DNA of 36,796 nucleotides from contig NZ_BONE01000077.1 of the NCBI RefSeq assembly GCF_016862555.1, forward strand, positions 1 to 36,796, in the 5' to 3' direction. This document shows, in pieces, positions 4,195 through 20,059 of the stretch. The notes beneath the pieces are model-generated. The model worked only from the letters and a program-made list of their open reading frames with translations, searched no databases and was not told where the DNA came from. The stretch comes from Asanoa siamensis (GTDB taxonomy: Bacteria; Actinomycetota; Actinomycetes; Mycobacteriales; Micromonosporaceae). The stretch's first letter is position 1; the number at the start of each line of letters is the position of its first letter. Both the position numbers and the translations under genes were made by a program.

Positions 4195-5590
4195 CCGGAT
4201 GCCGTGCCCCGCGCCCGGCAGCGACGAGTGGTGGGTTGGTAGCCCAAGCCACAACGAGCACGACGCGCGGCTACGGCGAGGAGTGCGGGACCTGGCCAAC
4301 GCTGTTCCAGTGCCGGAGATCGGGCCGGCTGGCCTGCGCGCCGCAGCTGCGCGGCGGCGCGTCCGACCGCGTGCGCGTGGCCGATGGCTGCCGGCACTTG
4401 CCGCTGCCACTACCGCGCTCGCCATCGTCGCGGTCGGTCTGTTGCCAGGCATGCCGACGGACCTCGGGGCGACGCCACTCAGGGATGCTGACGTCGCGGT
4501 GTTGCCGAAGACCTTCGCCGTAAACTCGTACCTCACCGCGCACGTCTCCGCCGACCCGCCCGGGCCGGTTATCGGTCTCTACAGCTACAGCCAAGGGGTC
4601 TTTCCGGCGCCGGGCGTACTCGTGGTCGGAGTGAACGGCCGGAGCTTTCGCGAGCTCGACGCGGCTTCCCGACCCAGTAGGGGATATCCTGGCTCGCACA
4701 GATCGGCTCTGACGTTGTTGTCGCCGGACGGCACCAAGGTCGCGGTAGGGGACTCGCCGAGCAGCATCGCAGTGGTCGACCTGGTCAATGGAAAGGCACG
4801 CCGCTATCAGGTCCACGGCGTCGCCCGACAGTTCCTCGCCTGGTCACCGGACTCTCGCCGGCTGCTCTACCTGGCTTTGCCACGGGTACCGGCGATGTTC
4901 GAGGAGCCTCGAGAAGGCGAGCCCGTTGTGCTGGACCTAGGCAGCGGGTCGTCGGCCGTCATCCCCGGGCAACGAGGCACGGTCGATGCCGCCTACGCCT
5001 CGGACGGCTCGCGGCTGGCGCTCCAACGGCAGGGAGAGCTGCGGATCGTCCGGCTGGATGGCGCGGTCGAGCGGACGTTGTCGCTGCCCGACCGGCACCG
5101 GTTGGCTGGCGCCGCCGCCTGGTCGCCGGACGGCAGCCGGCTCGCGCTGTACCGGATGGGAGAAGTGACCGGTCAGGGCACCCCCGACTCTGTCTATGGA
5201 CTACGCGGCGAGGGGTCTCCGGATGGGCTGGCGGTCCTTGACCTCGACAGCGGTGACACCTTCGCCCTCGGCCCACTCAGCGACCTGCGGACACTGCTCG
5301 GTTGGCGCGGTGATCGGCTGGTCGTGGACCGCTGGGAGACCATCGCACAGCTACCAGTCGCCGGAGGCCCGGCCGAGCAGCTGGCCATGCTGGAACCTGG
5401 CCACGGCAACTTCACCGACCTGCAGCTGGCTACGGCGCTGCTGCCCACGGTCGAGGTCCGCGACGCGGGTAGGGACCAGGGGCCATGGCCAGTTTGGCTG
5501 ATGCTGGTGGTGGCTTCAAGCGGGCTCGTCGCCGCCGGGCTCGGCATCCTCGTGACCCGAGCGCTGCGCCGACGAGGCCCGCTACCGTAG
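4184..5590 (+). CDS. Membrane-anchored beta-propeller protein, partner of the upstream sigma factor
   Basis: The 468-residue protein has a cytoplasmic N-terminus (about 1-67, ending in an Arg-rich RRRVRPRARGR stretch), a membrane helix (about 69-88, LPALAAATTALAIVAVGLLP), a large region with WD40/PD40-like propeller motifs (LLSPDGTKVAVGD, LAWSPDSRRLLYLAL, YASDGSRLALQ, WSPDGSRLALYRM), and a second membrane helix (about 436-458) before a short basic tail. The propeller should lie outside the cell. The N-terminal segment LRRGVRDLANAVPVPEIGPAGL resembles the start of the second module's protein at 6221. The gene overlaps the sigma gene by 11 nt. A role as membrane sensor or anti-sigma factor is inferred from this coupling; no zinc anti-sigma (HxxxCxxC) motif is present. 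Confidence 0.8.
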   Translation: MSTDRMPCPAPGSDEWWVGSPSHNEHDARLRRGVRDLANAVPVPEIGPAGLRAAAARRRVRPRARGRWLPALAAATTALAIVAVGLLPGMPTDLGATPLRDADVAVLPKTFAVNSYLTAHVSADPPGPVIGLYSYSQGVFPAPGVLVVGVNGRSFRELDAASRPSRGYPGSHRSALTLLSPDGTKVAVGDSPSSIAVVDLVNGKARRYQVHGVARQFLAWSPDSRRLLYLALPRVPAMFEEPREGEPVVLDLGSGSSAVIPGQRGTVDAAYASDGSRLALQRQGELRIVRLDGAVERTLSLPDRHRLAGAAAWSPDGSRLALYRMGEVTGQGTPDSVYGLRGEGSPDGLAVLDLDSGDTFALGPLSDLRTLLGWRGDRLVVDRWETIAQLPVAGGPAEQLAMLEPGHGNFTDLQLATALLPTVEVRDAGRDQGPWPVWLMLVVASSGLVAAGLGILVTRALRRRGPLP

Positions 5591-5714
5591 CAGCCCCTCT
5601 TGGCCCTACCTCGGATGCCGTCGATCCGCATGCACGCATCCCGCCGAGGCGGTGCGTTAAAGGTTCCCTCCGAGCCTCGGTCGGCAGGCGTCAGGTTAGG
5701 TGAGGAGGCATAGC

Positions 5715-6224
5715 TTGACGGAACATACGAACGGCGCGCGCGGCGACTTCGCCGACTTCGTGCGTGTGGAGGTGCCAACCCTGACCCGAGCGGCGTACCT
5801 CATGACCGGTGATCGTCACCACGCCGAGGATCTCGTCCAGACGACGCTGGCGCGGGTGGCCGTGCGATGGGACCACGTCGACGAGCCGGCGGCCTACGCG
5901 CGACGCGTCCTGTACACGCAGTCGGTCAGCTGGTGGCGTCGAAGAGCGGCACGCGTCTCGGAGACCTTGACCGCCCGGGTGCCCGACCAGCCCCGACTCG
6001 ACACCGACGTTGATGTCGCGGTGGTCCTGGAGCGGGCCCTTCACCGACTTACCCCACGCCAACGCGCAGTGCTGGTGCTTCGCTTCTTTGAAGATCGCAC
6101 TGAGTCCGAAACTGCCGAGCTTTTGAACTGCCGGATCGGAACGGTGAAGAGTCAGACCCGACACGCGCTTCGACGGCTGCGGGAATTGTCTCCCGACCTC
6201 GCGCAACTGGAGATGGACCGATGA
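5715..6224 (+). CDS. SigE-family ECF RNA polymerase sigma factor (second module)
   Basis: The roughly 169-residue protein has region 2 (FADFVRVEVPTLTRAAYLMTG, HHAEDLVQTTLARVAVRW), a WWRRR basic segment, and region 4 (LHRLTPRQRAVLVLRFFEDRTESETAELLNCRIGTVKSQTRHALRRLRE). The order and motifs match the SigE-type actinobacterial group, which lacks the extra C-terminal domains of longer ECF factors. Start TTG 5715 is preferred because GAGGAGG lies 6 nt upstream; an in-frame GTG at 5700 would have that site inside the gene. The stop overlaps the next ATG in an ATGA junction, so partner and sigma factor are made together. Unlike the first module, this sigma gene is intact. It probably controls its own operon and cell-envelope or stress genes, by family analogy. 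Confidence 0.9.
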   Translation: MTEHTNGARGDFADFVRVEVPTLTRAAYLMTGDRHHAEDLVQTTLARVAVRWDHVDEPAAYARRVLYTQSVSWWRRRAARVSETLTARVPDQPRLDTDVDVAVVLERALHRLTPRQRAVLVLRFFEDRTESETAELLNCRIGTVKSQTRHALRRLRELSPDLAQLEMDR

Positions 6225-7579
6225 ATGAATGGCTGACCCGGGGCCTCCACGCCATCGCCGACCGTGTTCCCCCCGCCGCCGTACCAGAGGACCTGTTCAA
6301 CCAGGCCAGGTCCCGCCACCGACGACGCACCGTCCGAGGCGGCATCGCGCTGACGGGGGTTCTGCTCGTCATCGCTGTCTCGCTGGTGCGACCGATATGG
6401 CAACAGCCATCTGTCTTCGGGGCTGGCGGGCCGCAGGCGGGCATCCCGACCGAGGTGGTCGTGCCGCCGCATTGGTGTGCCACGGTCGGCCAGTCGTCGC
6501 CTGGACCAGCCGCCGCGATCTTCGGGGGTGAAGCGACCAGGGACGACTGGTTCGAGGGCCGCTTCGCCGCGGTCTCCGCGACGGGCGACCGATATCGCGT
6601 CATCGACGAGATGCCATATCGGCCGCCGGGCTTCGAGGCGCTGCTGTCCCCGGACGGCCGTTACGTCGCGCACGGACGCGCGGTCACCGCGCTGACCAAG
6701 GACGGCAAGGACATCTCCTACCTGCCCGGCGACGTCATCGCGTTCTCGCCCCGGAGCGACCGGCTGGTGTTCGCCACGGAAGCGGAGTTAACGCATCCGA
6801 ACACATACACCACGCCGATAGTAGGTATCTACGACCTCGCCAGCCGGTCGACGGTGACTCAGGTCGACGTCGGATCCGCCTGGATCAGTCCAGGCTGGAC
6901 CGCCGCGATGTCCGCTGACGGCAGGCGCCTGGCACTTCAGGTACGCGACGAAATCTGGATCACAAGACTGGAAGGTACGGTCGGCACCCCGTACCTGAAG
7001 ATCCGTGTACCGGGCGGTCGTCTCGCCGGTCCGGGATCCTGGCTTCCGGACGGCCGCTCGCTGATGGTTGCCGAACCGGCGTCCGACGGTGGCTGGAGGC
7101 TCTCGGAACGGGACACGCAAACAGGCGAACCTGTCGAACGGCCCGCACTGCCCGTACCGCCCGCGGCCACCTTTCTGCGGGTGATCGCCTGGCACTCAGC
7201 GGATTCAGCCGTCGTCCTTGCCGGGTTCTCCCACGGCGACGTCAAGCCGGCGAGCGATAACTACGATGTGTCGTTGGGCCCGTTCCGAAGCTCGACGACA
7301 GATCAGGTGCGGTTGGTCGTGCTGACCCGCGGCGCCGCGAGCGCGCGTACGGTACTCGAGACCCCGGAGGGAGTCGACGACTTGGACGTGGCGGCCGACC
7401 TCGCCACCGCCGAGGCGTTCCGATCGCCAGGCGAGCCGACATTCGGACCGCCACATACCCTGTATCTCATCGGAGGCTCGCTCATCCTCGCCGCGGTGAC
7501 CATCGCGATCTTCGTTGCGGTGCGTGCGGTCCGCAATCGAGGACGGCGCAAGGCGGCCGCAGCGTCGAACCGCGGTTGA
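6221..7579 (+). CDS. Membrane-anchored beta-propeller protein, partner of the second sigma factor
   Basis: The 452-residue protein has the same architecture as the protein at 4184: a cytoplasmic N-terminus (1-40, LTRGLHAIADRVPPAAVPEDL then RSRHRRR), a membrane helix (about 41-58, GGIALTGVLLVIAVSLV), a propeller-like external region (LLSPDGRYVAHGRA, FSPRSDRLVFATE, MSADGRRLALQVRDEIW, WLPDGRSLMVAEP) and a C-terminal helix (about 413-436) with a basic tail RNRGRRKAAA. Sequence identity to the first module's protein is low, so the duplication, if it is one, is old. The ATGA overlap with the sigma gene supports a functional pair. Anti-sigma or sensory function is inferred, not shown. A weak GGCGCC hairpin follows the stop. 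Confidence 0.8.
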   Translation: MNEWLTRGLHAIADRVPPAAVPEDLFNQARSRHRRRTVRGGIALTGVLLVIAVSLVRPIWQQPSVFGAGGPQAGIPTEVVVPPHWCATVGQSSPGPAAAIFGGEATRDDWFEGRFAAVSATGDRYRVIDEMPYRPPGFEALLSPDGRYVAHGRAVTALTKDGKDISYLPGDVIAFSPRSDRLVFATEAELTHPNTYTTPIVGIYDLASRSTVTQVDVGSAWISPGWTAAMSADGRRLALQVRDEIWITRLEGTVGTPYLKIRVPGGRLAGPGSWLPDGRSLMVAEPASDGGWRLSERDTQTGEPVERPALPVPPAATFLRVIAWHSADSAVVLAGFSHGDVKPASDNYDVSLGPFRSSTTDQVRLVVLTRGAASARTVLETPEGVDDLDVAADLATAEAFRSPGEPTFGPPHTLYLIGGSLILAAVTIAIFVAVRAVRNRGRRKAAAASNRG

Positions 7580-7802: not shown

Positions 7803-9398
7803 ATGAGATCTGTCCGGACCACCGCCGCGGTGGGATGTCTCGCGCTTGCCCTCGGCGCGTGTGGGGGCAATGCCGGAGACGACGGCGCGGTCGCTGAGCA
7901 GCAGTTCGTCGACGGCAAGACGTTCACCATGGCGCTCGGCGCCGATCCCGGCTCGCTCGACCCCCACTTCACGTCGCTGTCGGCCGCGGCGCTGGTGGAC
8001 CGGTTCATGTACGACTCGTTGCTCTACAGCGACCCGAACGGCAACTCGGTGGCGGGTCTGGCGGAGACCTGGGAGGGCACCACGACCTCCGCCAAGTACG
8101 TGCTGCGCAAGGGCGTCACCTGCGCCAACGGCACTCCGCTGACCGCGACGTTGGTGGCCGACAACATCAACTTCGTCGGCAACCCGGAGAACGCGTCGAC
8201 CCGCATCGGGGTGTGGGTGCCGCCGGGCGCGACCGCGAAGGGTGACGACGCGACCGGGACCGTCACGGTCACCGCCGCGGCGCCCGCGGCGTTCCTCGTC
8301 CGTACCGTCGGCGGGCTGCCGATCGTGTGCGACCGCGGCATGAAGGACCGCAACTCCCTCAAGCAGGCCGGCGACGGCACCGGGATGTTCACGCTGACGG
8401 AAGCGGTCGCGAACGACCACTACACCTTCACCCGGCGCAAGGAGTACGCGTGGGGCCCGGGTGACTTCAAGGCGAACCAGCCCGGCCTGCCCGACACCGT
8501 GATCCTCAAGGTGGTCACGAACGAGTCGACCGCGGCCAACCTGCTGATGTCGAAGCAGGCGAACGCGGCACAGATCATCGGGCCCGACCGGCAGCGGCTG
8601 CAGGCCGCGAAGCTGTTCGAGCGCCAGGTGGAGGCGCCGCTCGGCGAGCTGTGGCTCAACCACAAGAGTGGGCTGCCCGGTTCCGACGAACAGGTGCGCC
8701 GCGCGCTCGTGCAGGCGCTGGATCTCGGTGAGCTCGGCAAGGTGGTCAGCAGCGGCAACGGCAAACCGGCGACCGGTCTGGTGGCGCCGGGCATCGGGCC
8801 GTGCAAGCAGAACACGGTCGAGGGCAACCTGCCCGGGCACGACGTGGCGGCGGCCAAGGCCGCGCTGGACGCGGCCGGCTGGACCGCCGGCGCCGGCGGC
8901 GCGCGCACGAAGGACGGCAGGAAGCTCGCGATCGTGATAGCCCTACCGTCCAGCCTCGGTTCCGGCATGCAGGCGGGCGTCGAGTTGGCGCAGAAGGCCT
9001 GGACGGAGGTCGGCGCGGAGGTCACGGTCAAGCCCGTGACCGATGCCGAGGTCGGCACCGCCATCGTCGGCGGTCAGCTCGCCTGGGACGCGGCCTTCCT
9101 GCCGCTCGGCCTGCCGCTGCCCAGCGGCCTGGTGCCGTACCTGTCGGGGCCGTCCGCGCCGCAGGGCGTCAACTTCTCCGGCATCGACAACGCCGAATAC
9201 AATGCGGCGGTCGCGGAGGCCTCGGCGATCGCCGGCACCGACGGTTGCGAGAAGTGGGCGGCCGCGGAGAAGGCCATCTTCGCGCGCGTCGACCTGGTGC
9301 CCTTCGTCAACTCGACGGTGCCGACCTTCGGCCAGGGCGCGCAGTTCGAGTTCGGTGACGGCGCGCTGGTCCCACAGTCGATCCGGATGCTCGCCTGA
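7803..9398 (+). CDS. Family-5 peptide ABC transporter substrate-binding lipoprotein
   Basis: The 531-residue protein begins with a lipoprotein signal peptide: MRSVRTTAAVGCLALALGAC, with lipobox LGAC and Cys20 as the lipidated residue. Family-5 solute-binding features follow: FTMALGADPGSLDPHF near the mature N-terminus, YDSLLYSDPNGN, GLAETWE, YVLRKGVTCANGTPL, and the mid-protein QVRRALVQALDL block. It captures oligopeptides outside the membrane for the ABC transporter encoded by the next three genes. ATG 7803 has GGAGG 5 nt upstream; an in-frame GTG at 7785 would place extra residues before the signal and is unlikely. The gene opens an operon running to about 20059. D-containing peptides as substrate are inferred only from the downstream enzymes. 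Confidence 0.92.
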   Translation: MRSVRTTAAVGCLALALGACGGNAGDDGAVAEQQFVDGKTFTMALGADPGSLDPHFTSLSAAALVDRFMYDSLLYSDPNGNSVAGLAETWEGTTTSAKYVLRKGVTCANGTPLTATLVADNINFVGNPENASTRIGVWVPPGATAKGDDATGTVTVTAAAPAAFLVRTVGGLPIVCDRGMKDRNSLKQAGDGTGMFTLTEAVANDHYTFTRRKEYAWGPGDFKANQPGLPDTVILKVVTNESTAANLLMSKQANAAQIIGPDRQRLQAAKLFERQVEAPLGELWLNHKSGLPGSDEQVRRALVQALDLGELGKVVSSGNGKPATGLVAPGIGPCKQNTVEGNLPGHDVAAAKAALDAAGWTAGAGGARTKDGRKLAIVIALPSSLGSGMQAGVELAQKAWTEVGAEVTVKPVTDAEVGTAIVGGQLAWDAAFLPLGLPLPSGLVPYLSGPSAPQGVNFSGIDNAEYNAAVAEASAIAGTDGCEKWAAAEKAIFARVDLVPFVNSTVPTFGQGAQFEFGDGALVPQSIRMLA

Positions 9399-9399
9399 C

Positions 9400-10374
9400 G
9401 TGGCGACCGCCGTGCGGGCGATGACGGACAACGCGTGGGCACGCTTCGCCGCGCGCCGGCTCCTGCGCCTGTTGCTCTCGATCTGGGTGCTGCTGACCGC
9501 GGCGTTCCTGATGATCCACCTGATCCCCGGCGACCCGGTGCGGGCGGCGCTCGGCGTCACCGCACCGGCGGAGCTGGTGAACGCCCGCCGCGAACAGCTC
9601 GGCCTCAACGACCCGCTCTGGACGCAGTACGGGCACTACCTGGCTGACCTGTTCTCCGGCAGGCTGGGCGTCTCGACCATCTCCGGCCTGCCGGTCTCGC
9701 AGGTCATCGCGGACCGCTACCCGGCGACCCTGGAGCTGGCCGTGTACGCGTTCCTCGTCGCGGTCGCCCTCTCGGTGCCGCTGGGCCTGACGATGGCGGT
9801 GCTGACGCGGACCGGCCGCCGGCGGCGGTTGGAGCTGGGCTTCACCTCGACCAGCGTCTTCCTCGGCACGGTCCCGGAGTTCCTGGTCGGAGCCTTCCTC
9901 GTGTACGTGTTCGGCGTGCGCCTCGGCCTGGCCCCGATCGCCGGGTGGGCGGGCCCGGACTCGTACGTGCTGCCGGTCCTCGCCCTGGCGATCGGACCGG
10001 CCGCCGTGCTCGCCCGGATCACGCGGGTGGAAACGCTCGCCGTGCTGGAGGCCGACTTCATCCGCACGGCCCGGGCCAAGCGGCTGCCGGACCGGCGGCT
10101 CTACCTGCGGCACGCGCTGCCCAACTCGCTGACCGCCACGGTCACCGTCGCGGGCCTGCTGCTCGGCGGGCTGGTCGCGGCGACCGTGCTGGTGGAGAAC
10201 GTGTTCGCCTGGCCGGGCCTGGGCAGCACCATCGTCTCGTCGATCCTCGCCAAGGACTACCCGGTGGTGCAGGCCATCGTGCTGGTCTACGGCCTGGGCG
10301 TGCTGCTGGTCAACCTGGTGGTCGACGTGGGCCTGGCCCTGCTCGATCCGCGCTCGACGATCCGGGAGAGCTGA
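9400..10374 (+). CDS. Peptide ABC transporter permease, DppB type
   Basis: The product of up to 324 residues is a DppB/OppB-like inner-membrane permease: an N-terminal helix (LLRLLLSIWVLLTAAFLMIHL) followed by the hallmark IPGDPVRAALG, a region ending RREQLGLNDPLWTQYGHYLADLFSGRLGVS, and four to five further helices. The ATPase-docking EAA loop is visible as ADFIRTARAKRLPDRRLYLRHALPNSL. Start GTG 9400 lies 1 nt after the binding-protein stop; ATG 9421 is an in-frame alternative and neither has a strong ribosome site. The gene is separated by 3 nt from the next. It forms the channel with the permease half of the downstream fusion protein. Confidence 0.92.
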   Translation: MATAVRAMTDNAWARFAARRLLRLLLSIWVLLTAAFLMIHLIPGDPVRAALGVTAPAELVNARREQLGLNDPLWTQYGHYLADLFSGRLGVSTISGLPVSQVIADRYPATLELAVYAFLVAVALSVPLGLTMAVLTRTGRRRRLELGFTSTSVFLGTVPEFLVGAFLVYVFGVRLGLAPIAGWAGPDSYVLPVLALAIGPAAVLARITRVETLAVLEADFIRTARAKRLPDRRLYLRHALPNSLTATVTVAGLLLGGLVAATVLVENVFAWPGLGSTIVSSILAKDYPVVQAIVLVYGLGVLLVNLVVDVGLALLDPRSTIRES

Positions 10375-10377
10375 ACC

Positions 10378-12219
10378 GTGCCGAGGTTGCGTACCCCGCT
10401 CGGCGGCACGGCCGCGGTGCTCCTCGTCGCCGTGCTGGCGACGGCCGTGCTGGCGCCGCCGCTGTGGGGGGAGAAGGCCGCCGCCGCCGCCGACACCGCG
10501 AACATCCTGCAGGGCGCGTCCGCGGCGCACTGGGCCGGCACCGACGGGCTTGGCCGGGACATCTTCTTCCGGGTGCTGGTGGCGACCCGCCTCTCCGTGC
10601 TGCTGGCGTTGCTGGCCACCGGGCTCGGCGTGCTCACCGGTCTGCTCCTCGGCGCCGCTCCGCTGCTGGTCGGCGCCCGTGTCGGCCGACTGGTGACCGC
10701 CGCGGTGAACATCGCGGTCGCGTTCCCCGGTCTCCTGCTCGCGCTCAGCTTCGCGGTGGTCTTCGGCGTGGGCGGCACCGGCGCCGTCCTCGCGATCGGC
10801 TTCGCGATCGCGCCCGCCTTCGCCCGGCTGACCGGTACCCTGGTCGCCACGGTCGCGGAGCGTGACTACATCGCCGCCGCCCGGATCGCCGGCGTCGGGC
10901 GGTTGCGGATCCTCGTCCGGCACGTCCTGCCGAACATCGGCGAGCCGTTGGTGGTCAACGCGACCGTGGCAGCCGGCGGCTCGCTGCTCGCGTTCGCCGG
11001 CCTGTCGTACCTCGGACTCGGCGTGCAGGCGCCCGCGTACGACTGGGGACGGCTGCTCGGCGAAGGGCTCAACAGCCTCTACATGCACCCGCTCGCGGCC
11101 CTCGTGCCGGGCGGCGCGGTCGTGCTGGCGGGGCTGGCGCTCAACCTGACCGGCGAGGCCGTCGCGCGGGGGATCGGGCAGACCACACCGCTGTTCACCG
11201 CGGTCCGCCGCCGGCGTCCCGAGGCGCCGCTTCCGTCCAACCAGGACAGCGCGGACGTGGTGCTCGCCGTGGAGGGGCTCCACGTCAGCTTTCCGGGCGT
11301 CACCCCGGTACGCGGGGTGAGCTTCACCGTGCGCCGCGGCGAGGCCGTCGGCGTGGTGGGGGAGTCCGGCTCAGGCAAGAGCCTCACCGCGCTGGCGATC
11401 GCCCAGTTGATCGAGGAGCCCGGACAGGTACGCGCCGAGCGGCTGGAGTTCGCCGGCGAGGACCTGCGGCACGGCCCGAGCCGGGCCCAGCGGCGCCTGC
11501 TCGGCACGTCCCTGGCGATGGTCTTCCAGGATCCGATGACGTCGTTCAACCCGACCCAGCGCATCGGCCGGCAGCTCGCCGAGCCGGCCCGGGCGCACCA
11601 GGGACTGTCGCGGCGGCGGGCGTTCGACCGGGCGGTGGACCGGCTGCGGGCCGTGCGGCTGCCCGCGCCGGAACGGCGTGCCCACCAGTTCCCGCACGAG
11701 TTCTCCGGCGGCATGCGGCAGCGGGCGATGATCGGCATGGGCCTGATGGGCACCCCGATGCTGATCCTCGCGGACGAGCCGACCACCGCCCTCGACGTGA
11801 CCGTGCAGCGGCAGGTGCTGGCGCTTCTGGAGGACGTCCGGGCCACCACCGCCGCGGCGCTGGTGCTGATCAGCCACGACATCACCGTCGTGGGGCAGGT
11901 CTGCGAGCGGGTGCTCGTCATGTACGCCGGCCGCATCGTCGAGGACGTGGCCACCGCCGAGCTGTCCACGGCGGCCCGGCACCCGTACACCCAGGCACTG
12001 CTGGCCGCGGTGCCGCACCTGGGCACCGACCGGGACCGGCCGCTGACTGTCATCCCGGGCCGGCCGGCCGACCCCGGCGACACACCGGTCGGCTGCGCGT
12101 TCGCCCCGCGCTGCGCGTACGCCGACGACCTGTGCCGGCGGGCGGACCCGCCGCTGGAAGGGGGAGTGGCCTGCTGGCACGCCGACCGGACGGTCGCGCC
12201 CCCCGGCCCGGGTGGGTGA
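10378..12219 (+). CDS. Fused peptide ABC transporter permease (DppC type) and ATP-binding protein (DppD type)
   Basis: A single 613-residue frame joins two transporter subunits. Residues 1 to about 280 are a DppC-like permease (N-terminal helix, HWAGTDGLGRDIFFRVLVATR, membrane helices, EAA loop ERDYIAAARIAGVGRLRILVRHVLPN). After a charged linker, about 295-600 is an ATPase: Walker A GESGSGKS (about 328-335), FQDPMTSFNP, signature FSGGMRQR (about 441), Walker B LILADEPTTALDV, switch HD, and the oligopeptide-transporter C-terminal motif with clustered cysteines (CAFAPRCAYADDLC) that in relatives can hold an iron-sulfur site. Such fusions occur in actinobacteria. GTG 10378 follows the upstream stop by 3 nt; the stop overlaps the next GTG. 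Confidence 0.92.
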   Translation: MPRLRTPLGGTAAVLLVAVLATAVLAPPLWGEKAAAAADTANILQGASAAHWAGTDGLGRDIFFRVLVATRLSVLLALLATGLGVLTGLLLGAAPLLVGARVGRLVTAAVNIAVAFPGLLLALSFAVVFGVGGTGAVLAIGFAIAPAFARLTGTLVATVAERDYIAAARIAGVGRLRILVRHVLPNIGEPLVVNATVAAGGSLLAFAGLSYLGLGVQAPAYDWGRLLGEGLNSLYMHPLAALVPGGAVVLAGLALNLTGEAVARGIGQTTPLFTAVRRRRPEAPLPSNQDSADVVLAVEGLHVSFPGVTPVRGVSFTVRRGEAVGVVGESGSGKSLTALAIAQLIEEPGQVRAERLEFAGEDLRHGPSRAQRRLLGTSLAMVFQDPMTSFNPTQRIGRQLAEPARAHQGLSRRRAFDRAVDRLRAVRLPAPERRAHQFPHEFSGGMRQRAMIGMGLMGTPMLILADEPTTALDVTVQRQVLALLEDVRATTAAALVLISHDITVVGQVCERVLVMYAGRIVEDVATAELSTAARHPYTQALLAAVPHLGTDRDRPLTVIPGRPADPGDTPVGCAFAPRCAYADDLCRRADPPLEGGVACWHADRTVAPPGPGG

Positions 12220-13193
12220 GCCCGTTGAATGAGCTGCGCTTCCGGGACGTGTCGGTCCGGTTCGGGGGCCGCCGCCGCGGCGTCACCGCCGTGGACCGGG
12301 TGGACCTCACCGTCCCCGCGGGGGCGGTGGTGGGCCTGGTCGGCGAGTCCGGCTCCGGCAAGTCGACCCTCGCCCGGGCCGCGGTGGGGCTGGCGCCCCT
12401 CGCGGGCGGCGCGGTGCTGCTCGACGGCCGGCCGCTGCCCCGTACGCCCGGGCGGCACGGGGTCCAGATGGTGTTCCAGGACCCCTACTCCTCACTCGAC
12501 CCGCGGATGACCGTGGGCGCCTCCATCGCCGAGGCTGCCCCACGGGGTGGGAACACGACGGCCGAGGTGGCCCGGCTGCTCGACCTGGTCGAGTTGGCGC
12601 CCGAGCGGGCCGCCCAGTATCCGGCGCAACTCTCCGGCGGGCAGCGGCAGCGTGTGGCGCTGGCCCGGGCCTTGGCCGCCCGCCCCGACGTGATCATCGC
12701 CGACGAGATCACCTCGGCGCTGGACGTCTCCATCCAGGGCACCGTGCTGAACCTCGTGCGGGACCTGCAGCGGCGGCTGAGCCTGTCGATGCTGTTCATC
12801 TCGCACAACCTCGCGGTCGTCCGCTACGTCAGTGACCTCCTCGCCGTCATGTACCTCGGTCGCATCGTCGAGTGTGGACCCGTCGACGACGTGCTCGGTG
12901 ACCCACAGCATCCGTACACCCGGCAGTTGCTGGCCTCGGCGCCGCGACCCGGCGGCATCCCCACGGCGCTGACCGGCGCGGAGGCCACGCTGGACAGCGC
13001 CGAGCCGGGCGACCCGCACCACCCGCCGCCCGGCTGCCGCTTCCACCCCCGCTGCCCGGTCGGCCCGCTCGTCCTCCCCGGCCGGGACGACTGCCGCGAC
13101 ACCGAACCAGACGGTGCGCAGCGCCGTCATCAGGCCGCCTGCCACTACGCCGCCCACGCGTCCGAACAGCACAACACGAGGAGTACGCCGTGA
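12216..13193 (+). CDS. Peptide ABC transporter ATP-binding protein, DppF type
   Basis: The 325-residue cytoplasmic ATPase pairs with the ATPase half of the preceding fusion. Visible are Walker A GESGSGKSTLAR (about 43-54), the Q-loop FQDPYSSLDPRM, signature LSGGQRQRVALARAL (about 139), Walker B VIIADEITSALDVS, switch SHNLAVVRYVSD, and the C-terminal oligopeptide-transporter extension PPGCRFHPRCP. GTG 12216 overlaps the upstream stop in a GTGA junction; a longer in-frame start would extend far into the previous gene. Its own stop overlaps the GTG of the giant hydrolase gene, so transporter and hydrolase are translationally coupled. Confidence 0.93.
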   Translation: MSPLNELRFRDVSVRFGGRRRGVTAVDRVDLTVPAGAVVGLVGESGSGKSTLARAAVGLAPLAGGAVLLDGRPLPRTPGRHGVQMVFQDPYSSLDPRMTVGASIAEAAPRGGNTTAEVARLLDLVELAPERAAQYPAQLSGGQRQRVALARALAARPDVIIADEITSALDVSIQGTVLNLVRDLQRRLSLSMLFISHNLAVVRYVSDLLAVMYLGRIVECGPVDDVLGDPQHPYTRQLLASAPRPGGIPTALTGAEATLDSAEPGDPHHPPPGCRFHPRCPVGPLVLPGRDDCRDTEPDGAQRRHQAACHYAAHASEQHNTRSTP

Positions 13194-16100
13194 CCCGACG
13201 CCAGCGCATTGACGATCTGCTGACCCTCGCGGTGCCGGAACAGCCGGCGATCGCACCGGACCGCAGCCACGCCGTGTACGTGCTGCGCACGGTGGATCCC
13301 GACGCCGACCGCACCGTACGCGACCTCTGGCGGGTCGGCGTCCGGGACGGCGAGCCGGAGCAGCTCACCCGCGGTGGCACCGACTCGGCGCCGGCGTTCT
13401 CGCCGGACGGCACCCGGATCGCGTTCCTGCGGGGCGCGGGCGGCGCGGCGCAACTGTGGCTGCTGCCGGCCGGCGGCGGGGAGCCCGAGCAGCTCACCAC
13501 GCTGCCGTTGGGCGCCGGCCGGCCGGTGTGGAGCCCGGACGGCACGGCCATCGCGTTCGCCGCGCCGGTCGACCTGCACGCCGCCGCCGGCGAGGACGAC
13601 GCGGCGCGGACCAGGCGCGGCACGGCACCGATCGTCGCCGACCGGCTGGACTACCTCGCCGACGGCGCCGGCTACCTGCGCACCGTGCGCAGCCACGTCC
13701 ACGTCCTGGACGTGGCCACCAGGGCGGTCCGCCGGATGACCGACGGCGACTGGCACGCCGGCGACCCGGCGTGGTCACCGGACGGGACGCGACTCGCGTA
13801 CGCGGCGGCCACCGCGGCGGACGCCGACCGCACGATGCACTGCCCGGTCCATGTCCGCTCCGCCACCGACGCGGCCGCGGCGCCGCGCGTCGTCGGCCTT
13901 GCCGACGGCCACGCCGGCCCGCTCACCTGGACCGCCGACGGCGCCGCGCTGCTGGTCGCCGGCTACCCAGGACGGGTGACCGGTCACGCGCACCTGTTGC
14001 GCGTGCCGCTCGACGGCGGCCCGGTCACCAGCCTGTCGGCCCCGCTGGACCGCAACGTGATGCCGGGCGGTCCGGGCTACCCGGGCGCGCTGCCGGTGCT
14101 CGTCGACGATGGACGGTCGGTGCTGTTCTGCGTCCGCGACGGCGGCGACACGCACCTCTACACGGTGCCGGTCGAGGGCGGCGAGCCGCGGCCGGTGCTG
14201 GCCGGCGCCGGGCGCACCGTCGCCGGCCTGTCGGTCGCCGGCGACACGGCCGTCGCGCTGCTGCTGACCCCGACCTCGCTCGGCGAGATCGTCACCGTCG
14301 ACCTCGGCACCGCCGGTGAGTCCGTGCGCACCGCGCACGGCGCCGACGTCGACCTGTACCGCCGCGAGGACCGCACGTTCACCATCTCGGACGGCACCGT
14401 GGTGCACGGCTGGGTGGTCCGCGACCCGGCCACCACCGGCGCCGGACCGTTGCTGCTGGACGTCCATGGTGGACCGCACAACGCCTGGAACGGCGCCGCC
14501 GACGACGTCCACCTCTACCACCAGGAGCTCGCCGCGCGGGGCTGGACCGTGCTGCTGCTCAACCAACGCGGCAGCGACGGCTACGGGGAGGCTTTCTACA
14601 CCGCCGCGCTCGGCGCCTGGGGTGTCGCCGACGCCAAGGACCTCCTGGAACCGATCGACGCGCTGGTCGCCGAGGGCCTCGCCGACCCCGCCCGGCTCGC
14701 CGTCACCGGATACAGCTACGGCGGCTACATGACCTGCTACCTGACCGGCATCGACGACCGGTTCGCCGCGGCCGTGGCCGGCGGCGTGGTCAGCGACCTG
14801 GCCAGCAGCTCCGGCACCTCCGACGCCGGGCACCTCATCGGCGCGTTCGAGCTCGACGGCGGCTCGTTGCCGGCGATGTCGCCGATCACGCGGGTCGACG
14901 ACGTCCACACGCCGACGCTGATCCTGCACGGCGCCGACGACGTGCGGTGCCCGGTCGGTCAGGCACAGCAGTGGCACACCGCGCTGCGCGAGCGCGACGT
15001 GCCCACCCGCCTCGTCCTCTACCCGGGCGCCTCGCACCTGTTCATCCTGCAGGGCAAGCCGTCGCACCGGATCGACTACAACCGCCGGATCGTGGACTGG
15101 GTTGAGCAGTACGTCGGTGACGGTCGCCCGGCCCTGGACGCCGCCCACTGGCAACGCCGGCTGACCACCCTCGCGCAGCGGCACCGGGTGCCCGGCGCCA
15201 CGCTCGGCATCCTGCGCCTGCGCCCCGGTCGCGACGACGAGCTCGTCGAGGCGGCGCACGGCGTCGTCAACAAGGACACCGGCGTGGCCACCACGACCGA
15301 CACGGTGTTCCAGATCGGCTCGATCACCAAGGTGTGGACCGCCACCGTCGTCATGCAACTCGTCGACGAGGGCCTGCTCGACCTCGACGCCCCGATCGTC
15401 GACGTGCTGCCGGAGTTCCGGCTCGCCGACCCGGACGTCACCAAGCAGGTCACCATGCGGCACCTGCTCACCCACACCAGCGGTATCGACGGCGACGTGT
15501 TCACCGACACCGGCCGCGGTGACGACTGCCTCGAGAAGTACGTCGCGGTCCTCGCCGGCCAGAGCCAGAACCATCCGCTCGGCGCCACCTGGTCGTACTG
15601 CAACGCGGGACTCTCCGTGGCCGGCCGGGTGATCGAGAAGCTGACCGGTGGCACCTGGGACGCCGCCGTCCGCGCCCGGCTGTTCGGCCCGCTCGGGCTG
15701 CGCCGCACCGGCACGCTGCCGGAGGAGGCGCTGTCCCACCGGACCGCGATCGGCCACGTCGGCGAGGACCTCGACGACCTCAAGGTGGCGCCGGTGTGGG
15801 GGCTGCAGCGCTCGGCCGGGCCGGCCGGCCTGATCAACTCCACCGCGGCCGAGGTGCTCGCGTTCGCCGGCCTGCACCTGCGCGGCGGCCTGGCCCCGGA
15901 CGGCACCCGGGTGCTCGGCGAGGCGAGCGTCGCCGCGATGGCGGCCAAGCACGCCGACCTGCCCGACGTGCACTCCCTCGGCAACTCGTGGGGCCTCGGC
16001 TGGATCCGGTTCGGTTGGGACGGGCACCGGCTCGTCGGGCACGACGGCAACACGATCGGCCAGTCGGCGTTCCTGAAGCTGCTGCCGGCCCAGAACCTGG

Positions 16101-16519
16101 CGATCACGCTGCTCACCAACGGTGGCAACGCACGCGACCTCTACGACGAGCTGTTCCGGGAGATCTTCGCCGAGGTGGCCGGCATCGCGATGCCGCACCC
16201 GATCGGGCCGCCCGCCGAGCCGGTGCACGTCGAGTTCCGGGAGCACGTGGGCACCTACGAGCGGGCCAGCGTCCGCATCGACGTGCTGGAACGCGACGGC
16301 GGGCCGGTCATGCGCACGACCATCACCGGGCCGCTGGCGGAGCTGCTGGACGAGCCGGTGCAGGAATACCCGATGGTCGCGTACGAGGAGAACCTGTTCC
16401 TGGTCAAGGACCCGTCCGCGCAGAACTGGGTGCCGGTGACCTTCTACGCGCTGCCGACCGGCGAGCGGTACCTGCACTTCGGGGCCCGCGCCACGCCCAA
16501 GGTCCTTGATGGACAGTGA
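13190..16519 (+). CDS. Bifunctional hydrolase: S9 (acylaminoacyl-peptidase/prolyl oligopeptidase) fused to S12 (beta-lactamase/D-peptidase fold)
   Basis: The 1109-residue protein has no signal peptide, so it should act in the cytoplasm after import. Residues 1 to about 390 form a propeller (AFSPDGTRIAFLRG, WSPDGTAIAFAAP, WSPDGTRLAYAAA). About 400-640 is an S9 alpha/beta hydrolase with nucleophile Ser509 in GYSYGGYM, Asp583/584 in HGADDVRCP and His616 in GASHLF. About 655-1010 is a serine beta-lactamase-fold domain with Ser711 and Lys714 in GSITK, Tyr803 in YCN and His951 in HDGNT (equivalent of KTG). The last 100 residues resemble the beta-barrel tail of S12 enzymes. Both active sites look complete. 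An ACGAGGAG site precedes GTG 13190. S12 relatives include D-aminopeptidases, which suits the racemase downstream, but substrate is inferred. Confidence 0.9.
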   Translation: MTRRQRIDDLLTLAVPEQPAIAPDRSHAVYVLRTVDPDADRTVRDLWRVGVRDGEPEQLTRGGTDSAPAFSPDGTRIAFLRGAGGAAQLWLLPAGGGEPEQLTTLPLGAGRPVWSPDGTAIAFAAPVDLHAAAGEDDAARTRRGTAPIVADRLDYLADGAGYLRTVRSHVHVLDVATRAVRRMTDGDWHAGDPAWSPDGTRLAYAAATAADADRTMHCPVHVRSATDAAAAPRVVGLADGHAGPLTWTADGAALLVAGYPGRVTGHAHLLRVPLDGGPVTSLSAPLDRNVMPGGPGYPGALPVLVDDGRSVLFCVRDGGDTHLYTVPVEGGEPRPVLAGAGRTVAGLSVAGDTAVALLLTPTSLGEIVTVDLGTAGESVRTAHGADVDLYRREDRTFTISDGTVVHGWVVRDPATTGAGPLLLDVHGGPHNAWNGAADDVHLYHQELAARGWTVLLLNQRGSDGYGEAFYTAALGAWGVADAKDLLEPIDALVAEGLADPARLAVTGYSYGGYMTCYLTGIDDRFAAAVAGGVVSDLASSSGTSDAGHLIGAFELDGGSLPAMSPITRVDDVHTPTLILHGADDVRCPVGQAQQWHTALRERDVPTRLVLYPGASHLFILQGKPSHRIDYNRRIVDWVEQYVGDGRPALDAAHWQRRLTTLAQRHRVPGATLGILRLRPGRDDELVEAAHGVVNKDTGVATTTDTVFQIGSITKVWTATVVMQLVDEGLLDLDAPIVDVLPEFRLADPDVTKQVTMRHLLTHTSGIDGDVFTDTGRGDDCLEKYVAVLAGQSQNHPLGATWSYCNAGLSVAGRVIEKLTGGTWDAAVRARLFGPLGLRRTGTLPEEALSHRTAIGHVGEDLDDLKVAPVWGLQRSAGPAGLINSTAAEVLAFAGLHLRGGLAPDGTRVLGEASVAAMAAKHADLPDVHSLGNSWGLGWIRFGWDGHRLVGHDGNTIGQSAFLKLLPAQNLAITLLTNGGNARDLYDELFREIFAEVAGIAMPHPIGPPAEPVHVEFREHVGTYERASVRIDVLERDGGPVMRTTITGPLAELLDEPVQEYPMVAYEENLFLVKDPSAQNWVPVTFYALPTGERYLHFGARATPKVLDGQ

Positions 16520-17330
16520 CACGGCCGCGCTCGCGGCGGCCGCCGCGGCCGGGGTGACGGTCCGCGAGGTCGCCGACCCCGGCGGGATCCGCGCGATGTA
16601 CGCGTTGTTCGACCGCATCTGGCGGCCCGACCCGCACAACCAACCGGTCTCCGCCGCGCTGATGCGGGCGCTCAGCAAGGCGGACAACTACGTCGTCGGC
16701 GCGTACGCCGGGGGCGTGTTGGTCGGCGCGTGCGTCGCGTTCTTCGGGCCGCCGGCGCGGGCCACCATGCACAGCCACATCACCGGGTCCGTCCGTTCCG
16801 GAGTCGGCTTCGCGCTCAAGACCCACCAGCGTGACTGGGCCATGCGCAACGGCCTGAAAACCATCTCGTGGACGTACGACCCGCTCGTGCGCCGCAACGC
16901 GTACTTCAACCTCGGGAAGCTGGCCGCGACCGCGGACGAGTACCTGACCGACTTCTACGGCGGGATGAACGACGGCCGCAACGGCGCCGACGACAGCGAC
17001 CGGGTGCTGGTGAGCTGGGACCTGACCGCGCCCGCCGTGGACGCGGCGTGCGCGGGCCGTCCGGCGATCCGCGAGCCCGACGACGCGGCGGTCGTCGTGC
17101 TCGACCGGACGGCCGACGGCCGGCCCGCCGCCGGGGATGGCAGGGGGCGCACGGTGCTGGTGGCCGTGCCTCCCGACATCGAGGCGCTCCGCCGGGTCGA
17201 GCCGGGCGTCGCGTACGCCTGGCGGATCGCGGTCCGCGAGACGCTCGCCACGCTGATGACCGGCGGGTGGCGGGTGGTCGGCTTCGACAAGGCCGGCCGG
17301 TACGTGCTCACCAGGGACGGAGACTCATGA
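16509..17330 (+). CDS. GNAT-superfamily acyltransferase, COG3375 type (probable amino acid N-succinyltransferase)
   Basis: The 273-residue protein resembles the COG3375 GNAT group: VREVADPGGIRAMYALFDRIWRP near the N-terminus, YVVGAYAGGVLVGACVAFFGP, HSHITGSVRSGVGFALKTHQR (acyl-CoA region, GVG..LK.HQR) and ISWTYDPLVRRNAYFNLGKLAA. This combination, directly before an N-acylamino acid racemase, matches the Geobacillus kaustophilus arrangement in which a GNAT enzyme N-succinylates D-amino acids for the racemase. That role is therefore inferred from family plus context. ATG 16509 overlaps the end of the hydrolase gene by 11 nt; the stop overlaps the racemase ATG (ATGA). The roughly 100 C-terminal residues beyond the GNAT core are typical of this family. 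Confidence 0.82.
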   Translation: MDSDTAALAAAAAAGVTVREVADPGGIRAMYALFDRIWRPDPHNQPVSAALMRALSKADNYVVGAYAGGVLVGACVAFFGPPARATMHSHITGSVRSGVGFALKTHQRDWAMRNGLKTISWTYDPLVRRNAYFNLGKLAATADEYLTDFYGGMNDGRNGADDSDRVLVSWDLTAPAVDAACAGRPAIREPDDAAVVVLDRTADGRPAAGDGRGRTVLVAVPPDIEALRRVEPGVAYAWRIAVRETLATLMTGGWRVVGFDKAGRYVLTRDGDS

Positions 17331-18432
17331 AACTCACCGGTGTCGAGTTGCGGCACGTCCGGATGCCGCTGGTGGCGCCGTTCCGGACCTCGTTCGGCAC
17401 CAGCACGTCCCGCGACGTGCTGCTGCTGCGCGCGGTCACCGCCGAGGCCGAGGGCTGGGGAGAGTGCGTGGCCATGGCCGACCCGCTGTACTCCTCGGAG
17501 TACATCGGCGCGGCCACCGACGTGCTCACCCGGTTTCTCGTGCCGGCCCTGGGCGCGGTGGAGCATCTCGACGCGAACGCGGTCGGGCCGGCCCTGTCCG
17601 GCTACAAGGGACACCGGATGGCCAAGGCGGCGCTGGAGCTGGCGATCCTGGACGCCGAGCTGCGGGCCGCCGGCCGACCGCTCGCCCGCGAGCTGGGCGC
17701 GGTCCGCGACCGGGTGCCGTGCGGGGTCTCCGTCGGCATCATGGGCTCGATCGGCGAGCTGCTCGACGCGGTCGCCGGCTACGTCGCCGCCGGGTACGTG
17801 CGGATCAAGCTGAAGATCGAGCCCGGCTGGGACGTGGAACCGGTCCGGGCCGTCCGCGAGCGGTTCGGCGACGGGCTGCTCCTGCAGGTCGACGCGAACA
17901 CGGCGTACGCCCTGGCGGACGCGCGGCACCTGAGCCGGCTCGACCCGTTCGACCTGCTGCTGATCGAACAACCGCTGGACGAGGACGACCTGCTCGGCCA
18001 CGCCGCCCTCGCCAGGCTGATCCGTACGCCGATCTGCCTCGACGAGTCGATCACGTCGGCCCGCACCGCCGTCGCGGCGATCACCCTCGGGGCCTGCGAG
18101 ATCGTCAACATCAAGGCCGGCCGCGTCGGCGGCTACCTCGAGGCACGCCGGATCCACGACGCCTGCATGGCGCACGGGGTGCCGGTCTGGTGCGGCGGGA
18201 TGCTGGAGACCGGCATCGGCCGGGCCGCGAACGTGGCGCTCGCCGCGCTGCCCGGCTTCACCCTGCCCGGCGACACGTCCGCGTCGGACCGGTTCTACCG
18301 CACCGACCTCACGGCGCCGTTCGTCCTCGCGGACGGCCACCTCGCCGTGCCGACCGGCCCTGGGCTGGGCGTCGAGCCGTTGCCGGACGTATCGCCGAGA
18401 TCACCACCGAAACTGCCTGGATACCGCTCTAG
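17327..18432 (+). CDS. N-acylamino acid (N-succinylamino acid) racemase / o-succinylbenzoate synthase family, frameshifted near 18388
   Basis: This enolase-superfamily enzyme moves the alpha proton of N-acylamino acids (or dehydrates the menaquinone precursor in OSBS relatives). The catalytic set is complete: KLK at 161-163 (Lys163), metal ligands Asp189 (VDAN), Glu214 (IEQPL), Asp239 (LDES), and Lys263 (NIKAGR). This numbering matches the Amycolatopsis N-acylamino acid racemase as I recall it. The C-terminus has GMLETGIGRAANVALAALPG and VPTGPGLGVEPLPD. Then one base is missing (GGACGTATC instead of GGACCGTATC): the correct frame reads RIAEITTETAWIPL and stops at TAG 18430-18432, restoring 368 residues. 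In the frame as given it reads on into the regulator. The ATGA overlap with the acyltransferase shows coupling. Confidence 0.88.
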
Positions 18433-18442
18433 GCTGTGTGCC

Positions 18443-20059
18443 GTGCGACCGAACGCGAGCCTCGGGCGCGTCCTCGACGACCTGGGCGCCACCCTCCTCG
18501 AGCTGGTCCACGGCGACCCGGACCAGACGGCCGCCATCGGCGGCGTGGTCATCCACGACCCGTTCGACGAGCCGGTCCTGCCGGCGCACGCGCTCGTCCT
18601 CGGCGTGGGCGTCGGCGATGCCGAGGCGACCGCCCGGTTGCTCCGGACGCTCGGTCAGCAGGAGGCCGCCGGGCTGGTCGTCCGGTCGCCGGTGCCGACC
18701 GGCGACGAGGTGGCCGCCGCGGCCACGGAGTCCGGGGTGGCGCTGCTCGGGCTGACCCGGGGCGCCTCGTGGGCGCAGCTCGCCGCGCTCCTGCGATCCC
18801 TGCTCGCCGAAGGCGACGTGGGCGACGCGGAGCCGCAGACGCTGGGCGGGGTGCCGGCGGGTGACCTGTTCGCGCTCGCCAACGCGATCGCGGCACTGCT
18901 CGACGCGCCGGTCACCATCGAGGACCGCAGCTCGCGGGTCCTCGCCTACTCGGGCCGGCAGGACGAGGCCGACCCGTCCCGCATCGAGACGATCCTCGGC
19001 CGGCAGGTGCCCGCCCGGTACGCACGGCAGCTCACCGACCGCGGCGTCTTCGGCGACCTGTACCGCAGCGACCAGCCGGTGTTCGTCGAACCCAGCGGCG
19101 ATGACTTCCTGGTGCCGCGGGTGGCGGTCGCCGTCCGCGCCGGCGACGAGGTCCTCGGCTCGATCTGGGCGGCCGTCCGGCAGCCGCTCAACCTGGACCG
19201 CCGGCAGGCCTTCCGGGACGCGGCCCGCGTCGTCGCGCTGCACATGCTGCGCATCCGGGCCGGCGCCGACGTCGAGCGGCGGCTGCGCACCGACCTGCTC
19301 AGCACCGCGCTGGAGGGCGGGCCGGCGGCACGGGACGCACTGACCCGGCTCGGGCTCGCCGACCGCCCGGTCGCGGTGCTGGGGGTGGCCCTGCGCGGCA
19401 CCGAGGGCACGGCGGACGCCGACGCGGGCCTCGCCACCGACCTGCAACGCCTGGCGGACGCCCTCGCCATGCACGTCGGCGCGGTGCACCCGAGGTCGGC
19501 GACGGCCCTGGTCGGTGACGTCGTCTACGGTCTCGTGCCGATCAGCCGGGGAAGCTCCGACGGCGCTGTTCGTATCGCCACCGACTTCCTCGACCGGGTG
19601 GGCGAGCGGATCCCCGCGGTGGCCGGCATAGGCGCGGTCGCACAGGACGTGGCCGGGTTGGCGCGGGCGCGGGCGGAGGCGGACCGGGCGCTGCGGGTGC
19701 TGCGCACCCGCAGCCGCGCCGGGCGCCGGGTCGCGCGGCTGGCCGACGTACACGTCGAAGCGTTGTTGCTTGATCTCGCCGACGTGGTCTCGGCCCGCGG
19801 CGACCAGCCGAGCGGTGCGGTCGCGAACCTGCTCGTCTACGACGCCCGGCACAACACCAACCTGGTCGCCACGCTCCGCGCGTGGCTGGACGCCTTCGGC
19901 GACGCGGTCGCGGCGGCGGCCGCGATGTACGTGCACCCGAACACGTTCCGATACCGCTTACGGCGGGTGGCGGAGATCGGCCCGATCGACCTGCGGGACC
20001 CGGACGCCCGCTTCGCCGCGATGCTGGAGCTACGCCTCTCACCCCGCCGCTCCGACTGA
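18443..20059 (+). CDS. PucR/CdaR-type transcriptional regulator
   Basis: The 538-residue protein has an N-terminal domain of the PucR purine-catabolism-regulator type (LGRVLDDLGATLLELVHGDP, VVIHDPFDEP), a middle GAF/GGDEF-like region (DLFALANAIAALLDAPVTIEDRSSRVLAYS), and a C-terminal PucR helix-turn-helix (NLVATLRAWLDAFGD, AAAMYVHPNTFRYRLRRVAEIGPIDL). GTG 18443 begins homology and lies 10 nt after the restored racemase stop. No ribosome site is evident; TAGGCT at 18431-18435 region, 7 nt before the GTG, could be the -10 of a leaderless transcript, so the gene may also have its own promoter. As last gene of the operon it probably regulates it in response to an amino acid or peptide-derived ligand (inference). 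Confidence 0.85.
   Translation: MRPNASLGRVLDDLGATLLELVHGDPDQTAAIGGVVIHDPFDEPVLPAHALVLGVGVGDAEATARLLRTLGQQEAAGLVVRSPVPTGDEVAAAATESGVALLGLTRGASWAQLAALLRSLLAEGDVGDAEPQTLGGVPAGDLFALANAIAALLDAPVTIEDRSSRVLAYSGRQDEADPSRIETILGRQVPARYARQLTDRGVFGDLYRSDQPVFVEPSGDDFLVPRVAVAVRAGDEVLGSIWAAVRQPLNLDRRQAFRDAARVVALHMLRIRAGADVERRLRTDLLSTALEGGPAARDALTRLGLADRPVAVLGVALRGTEGTADADAGLATDLQRLADALAMHVGAVHPRSATALVGDVVYGLVPISRGSSDGAVRIATDFLDRVGERIPAVAGIGAVAQDVAGLARARAEADRALRVLRTRSRAGRRVARLADVHVEALLLDLADVVSARGDQPSGAVANLLVYDARHNTNLVATLRAWLDAFGDAVAAAAAMYVHPNTFRYRLRRVAEIGPIDLRDPDARFAAMLELRLSPRRSD

Follow-up and report, generated by a model that had tools for sequence, protein, structure and literature searches.

An actinobacterial operon joining peptide import, an S9-S12 double hydrolase and a GNAT-racemase pair, with a proposed role in the scavenging of D-residue peptides

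Gene content of the operon

The window analysed in this work, i.e. the whole of contig NZ_BONE01000077.1 (C77, 36,796 bases) of Asanoa siamensis, belongs to an actinobacterial genome of 8.78 Mb in 219 contigs. It contains an operon of eight genes, all on the + strand, encoding a lipoprotein of the solute-binding type (SBP), a permease, a permease-ATPase fusion, an ATPase, an S9-S12 fusion hydrolase, a GNAT protein, a racemase of the N-succinylamino acid racemase/o-succinylbenzoate synthase (NSAR/OSBS) subfamily and a PucR-type regulator (Table 1). The initial annotation of this stretch had described the eight genes as overlapping or nearly touching, and this was confirmed: the gaps from the SBP to the racemase gene were 13, 3, -7, -4, -11 and -4 bases (the -7 counts ATPase 2 from its left end at 12213; from the first start codon, GTG at 12216, the value is -4). 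The gene order recurs across many genera, and the arrangement is therefore not due to chance. A promoter scan found no site.

Table 1. Genes of the operon, their positions in the window and the evidence for each assignment.
Feature	Position	Strand	Evidence and remarks
Family-5 solute-binding lipoprotein, SBP_bac_5	7803..9398	+	Pfam PF00496, 136 bits; N-terminus ...LALGAC, lipobox-like by eye
Dpp/Opp-type permease 1	9412..10374	+	Start 9412 or 9421; PF00528 and PF19300
Permease 2 fused to ATPase 1	10378..12219	+	PF00528 (BPD_transp_1), PF00005 (ABC_tran), oligo_HPY
ATPase 2	12216..13193	+	PF00005 (ABC_tran), oligo_HPY; GTG start 12216
S9-S12 fusion hydrolase, 1109 aa	13190..16519	+	Pfam Peptidase_S9 and Beta-lactamase (S12); motifs; model
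GNAT, proposed D-amino acid N-succinyltransferase	16509..17330	+	Fold, family members, related GNATs beside racemases
NSAR/OSBS-subfamily racemase, residues 1-357 (MR_MLE)	17327..18397	+	TIGR01928, 299.8 bits (cut-off 200.65); 1sja, 578 bits
PucR-type regulator	18443..20059	+	HTH_30, 73 bits; GGDEF_2; here in frame with the racemase

Pfam assigned families to seven of the eight products, the eighth being the GNAT protein. The importer had the full Dpp/Opp complement: an SBP_bac_5 protein, two BPD permeases and two ATPases with oligo_HPY. The best NCBIfam model for permease 1 was Opp2B, which scored below its cut-off.

The fusion hydrolase carried the catalytic residues of both of its halves. 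The S9 half, a beta-propeller followed by an alpha/beta hydrolase, had the Ser-Asp-His triad of S9 acylaminoacyl peptidases and carboxypeptidases (S509 in GYSYGG, D584 and H616), and the S12 half had the SxxK, YxN and HxG motifs of the MEROPS S12 D-peptidases (S711-x-x-K714, Y803-x-N805 and H951-x-G953). All of these residues were invariant in a 34-row alignment. The fusion with a D-peptidase-type S12 domain described in the initial annotation is present. The structure was predicted with a local distance difference test score (pLDDT) of 87.0 and a template modelling score (pTM) of 0.66, and no signal peptide was evident by eye. Among the first 50 structural matches listed, the S9 half was closest to S9 carboxypeptidases: 8wt1 from Geobacillus (template modelling score, TM, of 0.90 by target, 32% identity), followed by a Deinococcus S9 peptidase (5yzm, an S9 carboxypeptidase). 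Carboxypeptidase was thus the nearest named activity; S9 acylaminoacyl peptidases were also among these matches. The nearest structures to the S12 half included IS11 (7spn), SurE (6ksu), Ulm16 (8fek), the R61 DD-peptidase (1cef), the S12 peptidase 3wwx and the S12 enzyme 4y7p, several of which act at D-residues; alkaline D-peptidase and D-amino acid amidase were matched too. The likeness to the S9 carboxypeptidases lies in fold and sequence, and the likeness to the S12 enzymes acting on D-residue peptides in motifs and sequence; the protein differs from both in the fusion of the two halves.

The GNAT protein scored 15.3 bits with Pfam Acetyltransf_1, below the cut-off of 20.7 bits. At E<=0.05, however, this model was matched by 36 of the 48 members of its family that were aligned, the window protein among them. 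Its AlphaFold model (mean pLDDT 92.7) had GNAT structures as best Foldseek matches (first match: E 4e-7, TM 0.72 by target and 0.45 by query); the matches covered about half of the model and an extra C-terminal part lay outside them. Operon GNATs were 26-27% identical over about 250 columns to the GNATs encoded beside the racemases of Lysinibacillus and Deinococcus (D. psychrotolerans). The earlier assignment to the GNAT family therefore holds despite the Pfam score, and a D-amino acid N-succinyltransferase is proposed from sequence and model.

The racemase was colinear with the Amycolatopsis N-acylamino acid racemase 1sja over residues 1-355 without offset; the nearest solved structures were 1sja, 4a6g and 7s8w, all Amycolatopsis N-acylamino acid racemases/NSARs. 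The catalytic residues and R266 have the same numbers in the crystallised enzyme as in the window racemase. Residues K161, K163, D189, E214, D239, K263 and R266 showed no variation across the 69 operon racemases compared, that of the window among them (the set contains five identical row pairs, and its family and named subsets, defined below, overlap). Two catalytic lysines, three metal ligands and R266, which we take to be the mark of the NSAR/OSBS subfamily, were thus all conserved. The claim of a complete active site stands as far as the catalytic residues are concerned; a C-terminal shift and an A264 substitution had been overlooked. The racemase has no stop codon of its own: its reading frame stays open from 17327 to 20059 (910 codons) and so takes in pucR. 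With respect to its relatives the sequence has one base fewer near 18391, and the other frame ends with IAEITTETAWIPL and a stop at 18432, so that the shift removes the stop together with about 11 C-terminal residues. The length from the start of the match was 362-394 aa at 80 family loci (own second copy included) and 365-372 aa at 52 named loci, the 53rd (L198) being truncated where its stretch ends. The shift is either a sequencing error or a real mutation. A true racemase-PucR fusion was not favoured: none of the 80 family and 52 named racemases with a visible end continued into pucR.

Conservation of the unit and the M20 slot

Racemase homologues were found in 159 of 200 genomes of the family (E<=1e-20). 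Eighty racemase places were chosen by hand from this listing (79 in relatives and one in the own genome); 78 of them had a GNAT gene on the same strand at most 1.5 kb upstream, and 15 also had an S9-S12 gene. A second scan used an S9-S12 alignment seeded by two S9 motifs, and the best 80 of at least 541 relatives were kept (“named loci”). Gene order at the named loci means matches to the window and M20 queries on one strand, so that unmapped genes may lie between them; L198 had a gap before the M20 gene. The order S9-S12, M20 hydrolase, GNAT, racemase was found at 46 of these 80 loci, under 23 organism labels including Streptomyces, Kribbella, Nocardioides, Microbacterium and Lentzea. It was preceded by a complete transporter at 33, the run from SBP through PucR was present at 26, and a further S12 match stood directly before an SBP at 48. 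The PucR of the window was 57-74% identical to the same-strand PucR proteins of S9-S12 loci. Linkage of import, S9-S12, GNAT and racemase, as claimed in the initial annotation, is thus widely conserved across genera, and the separation of transporter and racemase in relatives that would have spoken against it was not seen. The alignments behind these comparisons held 11 of the 15 family S9-S12 proteins (A1), 33 of the 80 named ones (A5) and 47 of 55 listed GNATs (A4). Five Amycolatopsis records, other than that of the crystallised racemase, had a different order with respect to the window: GNAT and racemase lay upstream of S12, SBP, transporter and S9-S12.

The same comparison showed which gene the window lacks. 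An extra gene lay between S9-S12 and GNAT at 14 of the 15 family S9-S12 loci, and read as an M20 hydrolase at the eight that were translated; the Kribbella copy matched Pfam Peptidase_M20 and M20_dimer. Among the named loci, an M20 gene stood in this slot at 46 of the 47 where GNAT and racemase come after S9-S12. GNAT and racemase after S9-S12 with no M20 gene between them were found in the window, L062 and L172 (Kutzneria). A profile of 11 M20 proteins, mixing operon proteins with others such as the C38 protein described below (alignment A3), was nearest to carboxypeptidase G2 (202 bits), then to peptidase T-like and DapE entries, and the Kribbella protein scored best on PRK06133, “glutamate carboxypeptidase”, below its cut-off (225 vs. 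349 bits). From these sequence matches, the slot of the “missing desuccinylase” is most likely that of a carboxypeptidase G2-like M20 enzyme of relatives, and the gene has most likely been lost from the unit of the window. This agrees with the earlier statement that no desuccinylase is encoded in the window. Two M20 matches were found elsewhere in the genome, both outside the window contig: one with 49% identity (C38) and one with 28% (C23). Each of the five other genomes of the genus had a counterpart of the C38 protein (79-86%), and two of these genomes carry a further M20. The C38 protein may supply the hydrolysis step in trans, or the window copy of the unit may be partly disabled.

The distribution of the unit was patchy. 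The S9-S12 gene was present in one of six genomes of the genus, which makes the unit accessory there. A sample of 396 genomes of the phylum, with two candidates scored per genome, gave at least four S9-S12 matches at E<=1e-150 as a lower bound: that of the window and one other were full-length, and two covered the S12 part only. In a quick tree that omitted eight racemases below 55% identity (L112-L119), the window racemase fell in a supported set of 83 rows (SH-like approximate likelihood-ratio test, SH-aLRT, 98) together with 66 of the 69 operon racemases from several families; the tree label “GNATonly” also covers loci at contig ends, e.g. L050. A second GNAT-racemase pair of the same genome (C39 55412-57317, L049; GNAT 49% and racemase 72% identical to those of the window) was observed: its racemase fell outside the 83-row set and grouped with racemases of the five other genomes of the genus, all of which have the pair. 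The simplest reading is an accessory unit spread partly by transfer.

Identity to the operon relatives was ranked from the lowest mean for the proteins other than permease 2 and ATPase 1. The window proteins ranked 24 of 52 (SBP), 20 of 55 (permease 1), 53 of 71 (S9), 47 of 71 (S12), 34 of 69 (racemase), 33 of 52 (PucR), 8 of 69 (GNAT) and 4 of 30 (ATPase 2). General decay of the window copy was not seen in these ranks, the absence of M20 notwithstanding. Pairwise distances between operon proteins co-varied (Spearman 0.41 to 0.77), a result that leaves shared ancestry and joint transfer indistinguishable.

From the 64 plasmid records that gave a match, we picked by hand eleven annotated regions, each surrounding a racemase homologue. 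All eleven (two Streptomyces, one Arthrobacter and eight from other phyla) had a GNAT gene near that homologue. A Streptomyces linear plasmid carried the whole unit, with the independent annotations “M20 family metallopeptidase”, “GNAT family N-acetyltransferase” and “menC”. In Deinococcus psychrotolerans the plasmid order was NSAR, GNAT, two permeases, SBP, two S12 genes and “D-aminoacylase”; in Deinococcus sp. QL22 it was NSAR, GNAT, two permeases, SBP, S12, “D-aminoacylase” and RpiR, and the families of the QL22 locus were confirmed as SBP_bac_5 (family-5 importer), BPD permease, S12 and Amidohydro_3. Lysinibacillus combined a peptide transporter, a TIGR01891-type M20, GNAT and NSAR, and Priestia combined M20, GNAT and NSAR. 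No S12 genes stood beside the racemase in D. radiodurans, D. ficus (with M20) and a second QL22 plasmid, all with short binding proteins, or in Sulfitobacter, with an amino acid ABC transporter. The GNAT-racemase pair thus appears to have been joined to importers and D-peptidase-type hydrolases more than once.

Some further features of these loci were observed. In the Streptomyces sp. NBC_00376 plasmid (L232/L236) the racemase block lay upstream of the transporter block, transposase genes were located upstream of the SBP and downstream of S9-S12, and M20 was preceded by an additional amidohydrolase gene of the PRK09061 type. In the Amycolatopsis operon L162, a Beta-lactamase2 (PF13354) protein was encoded between the stand-alone S12 and the SBP (3645-4544), and a “serine hydrolase” was annotated at the matching place in L232.

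Proposed function and alternative explanations

The operon is proposed to scavenge peptides containing D-residues through import, hydrolysis and D-to-L inversion via N-succinyl intermediates, a reading to which we give a probability of about 60%. The lipoprotein and ABC transporter would import short peptides for hydrolysis by the cytoplasmic S9-S12 fusion. In this protein the S9 half would probably serve as a carboxypeptidase or peptidase of the L type, and the S12 half would cleave at D-residues. The GNAT protein would N-succinylate the freed D-amino acids, and the NSAR would racemise the resulting N-succinyl-D-amino acids. Hydrolysis of the N-succinyl-L form by the M20 amidohydrolase would then yield L-amino acids irreversibly, with PucR as the putative regulator of the unit. 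Gene content, conserved order, catalytic motifs, the GNAT fold and the futalosine genes in place of MenB were observed directly, whereas substrates, stereospecificities, succinyl donor, cellular location and regulation are inferred. The initial annotation had reached a similar reading, of which the conserved linkage was upheld; a role for the S9 domain as desuccinylase became unlikely, and the window copy proved to have no M20 gene and a racemase frameshifted at its end.

Sakai et al. reportedly described in 2006 an NSAR pathway for the irreversible conversion of D- to L-amino acids in Geobacillus kaustophilus, and the operon is proposed as a variant of that route, with the known core (GNAT, NSAR and N-acyl hydrolase) extended by import, a double peptidase and another type of M20. 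The two share the NSAR/OSBS racemase, the GNAT protein and, in relatives of the window, an M20 hydrolase. The GNAT likeness was established by fold and by comparison with racemase-side GNATs of Firmicutes and Deinococcus, not with a Geobacillus locus. Unlike the Geobacillus pathway, the operon adds the family-5 importer, the S9-S12 fusion, often a second S12 hydrolase, and PucR. An L-specific desuccinylase encoded alongside, as in the Geobacillus pathway, was absent from the window, which for this reason was not classed as a complete member of the NSAR D-to-L pathway.

Several observations weigh against the scavenging function. The window has no M20 gene. The M20 partner in Lysinibacillus belonged to the TIGR01891 amidohydrolase group (over cut-off), whereas the M20 of the operons was carboxypeptidase G2-like, with PRK06133 as best model; the desuccinylase step is thus not carried by orthologues. 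The racemase of the window loses its last residues in this sequence, and has alanine at position 264 where the other 68 operon racemases have proline. Esterases and beta-lactamases are also among the relatives of the S12 half, and the assignments of substrate and stereospecificity are inferences throughout. Twenty-four of the 80 named loci had neither GNAT nor racemase on the same strand of the stretch (several stretches were short, and in L184 both genes were on the other strand), so that hydrolase and transporter probably can function in the absence of the inversion enzymes. Finally, the genome encodes other MR_MLE proteins at 16 places, one of which (C13) outscored the window racemase on the actinobacterial OSBS model PRK02901 (97.6 vs. 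71.2 bits, both below cut-off).

Other functions were considered for the same genes. The unit might mainly destroy D-residue (nonribosomal) peptide antibiotics of competitors, with the inversion enzymes merely disposing of the freed D-amino acids; its presence on Streptomyces plasmids, its patchy distribution with a racemase tree that mixes families, and a Bacillus D-stereospecific peptidase reported to hydrolyse gramicidin A (PMC9541196) are in line with this. An importer ahead of the hydrolases would nevertheless suit feeding better than defence, and the S9-S12 protein had no signal peptide by eye; detoxification as the main role is considered unlikely. Recycling of the cell wall, in which the imported peptides would be peptidoglycan stem peptides and the D-residues D-Ala and D-Glu, would agree with the matches of the S12 half to the R61 DD-peptidase and D-Ala-D-Ala carboxypeptidases and is considered improbable: the kinetic values tabulated for NSARs in PMC8142540 come from assays with N-succinyl-phenylglycine or -phenylalanine, although this does not prove a preference. 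The production of D- from L-amino acids is quite improbable. The racemase works both ways and the stereospecificity of GNAT and hydrolase would set the direction, but the M20 hydrolase of the operon has carboxypeptidase G2 and DapE as relatives, both of them enzymes acting on L-configured centres, while D-succinylases are a separate kind of enzyme. Importer and peptidases also suggest catabolism. A pair of NSAR and D-succinylase is mentioned in PMC7431475.

Two alternatives concern single enzymes. The S9 half itself had been put forward in the initial annotation as the desuccinylase, and the S9 acylaminoacyl peptidases among its structural matches, as well as the three loci with no M20 between S9-S12 and GNAT, would fit; with S9 carboxypeptidases as best matches and M20 in the slot at 46 of 47 named relatives, this is very unlikely. 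A menaquinone OSBS (MenC), as which automatic annotation names the racemase, is extremely improbable, even though it passes the TIGR01928 menC cut-off and its plasmid homologues carry the annotation menC. MenB was not found over cut-off in the genome (best 134.5 vs. 342.7 bits; MenD, MenE and MenF were not searched), no protein passed the PRK02901 cut-off (best 97.6 vs. 288 bits, the C13 protein), two PF02621 (MqnA/MqnD-type) matches over cut-off indicated futalosine genes, and a second racemase homologue, the C39 copy, is present. The classical Men pathway was thus not detected as far as it was searched, the OSBS role was rejected to the same extent, and the racemase is probably not a menaquinone enzyme in this genome; nor does it look like the only menaquinone OSBS of the genome, which would have spoken against the initial annotation. 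NSAR-type racemases with a nearby GNAT gene were also annotated as menC or menaquinone biosynthesis on PLSDB plasmids (e.g. NZ_CP045548.1 and NC_000958.1). A mismatch of MenC and Mqn is visible in a published survey table as well (PMC3914697): in Deinococcus-Thermus proteomes MenC was listed in 12 of 12, MenF in 1, and MqnA, MqnC and MqnD in 12 each.

If the scavenging function is correct, a widespread racemase family usually annotated as menC would gain a clear job in genomes that have futalosine genes and no MenB, and the operon would define a complete route, open to testing, by which D-residue peptides are turned into L-amino acids. It would also suggest a possible purpose for the much-used racemases of the Amycolatopsis type. 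Two enzymes deserve attention as well, the uncharacterised S9-S12 double peptidase and, as candidate L-desuccinylase, the carboxypeptidase G2-like protein; either might be of use in making pure amino acids. More tentatively, the unit could be a mobile, partly plasmid-borne catabolic island assembled at least twice (in Actinomycetota and Deinococcus), with D-residue peptide antibiotics and other D-peptides as food and a dual-specificity S9-S12 enzyme trimming L- and D-residues before inversion; we regard this broader picture as possible rather than probable. No description of this gene set was found in the open-licence literature, judged from titles and the beginnings of abstracts.

Neighbouring genes in the window

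Directly upstream of the operon (3668-7579, + strand) lie two genes for sigma factors. A larger gene comes after each of them; that after the first was weakly PD40-like, and that after the second had no family. Near the end of the window, an open reading frame at 35747-36472 (+ strand) was Beta-lactamase2-like, with 34.3 bits vs. a class A beta-lactamase cut-off of 200. A low-GC block (62-66%) at 27718-34251 (- strand) encodes a KedN5-family methylcobalamin-dependent radical SAM C-methyltransferase (834.6 bits, cut-off 700), together with a glycosyltransferase, a methyltransferase, a phosphoribosyltransferase-like protein and an iron-containing alcohol dehydrogenase, and looks like part of a natural-product cluster.

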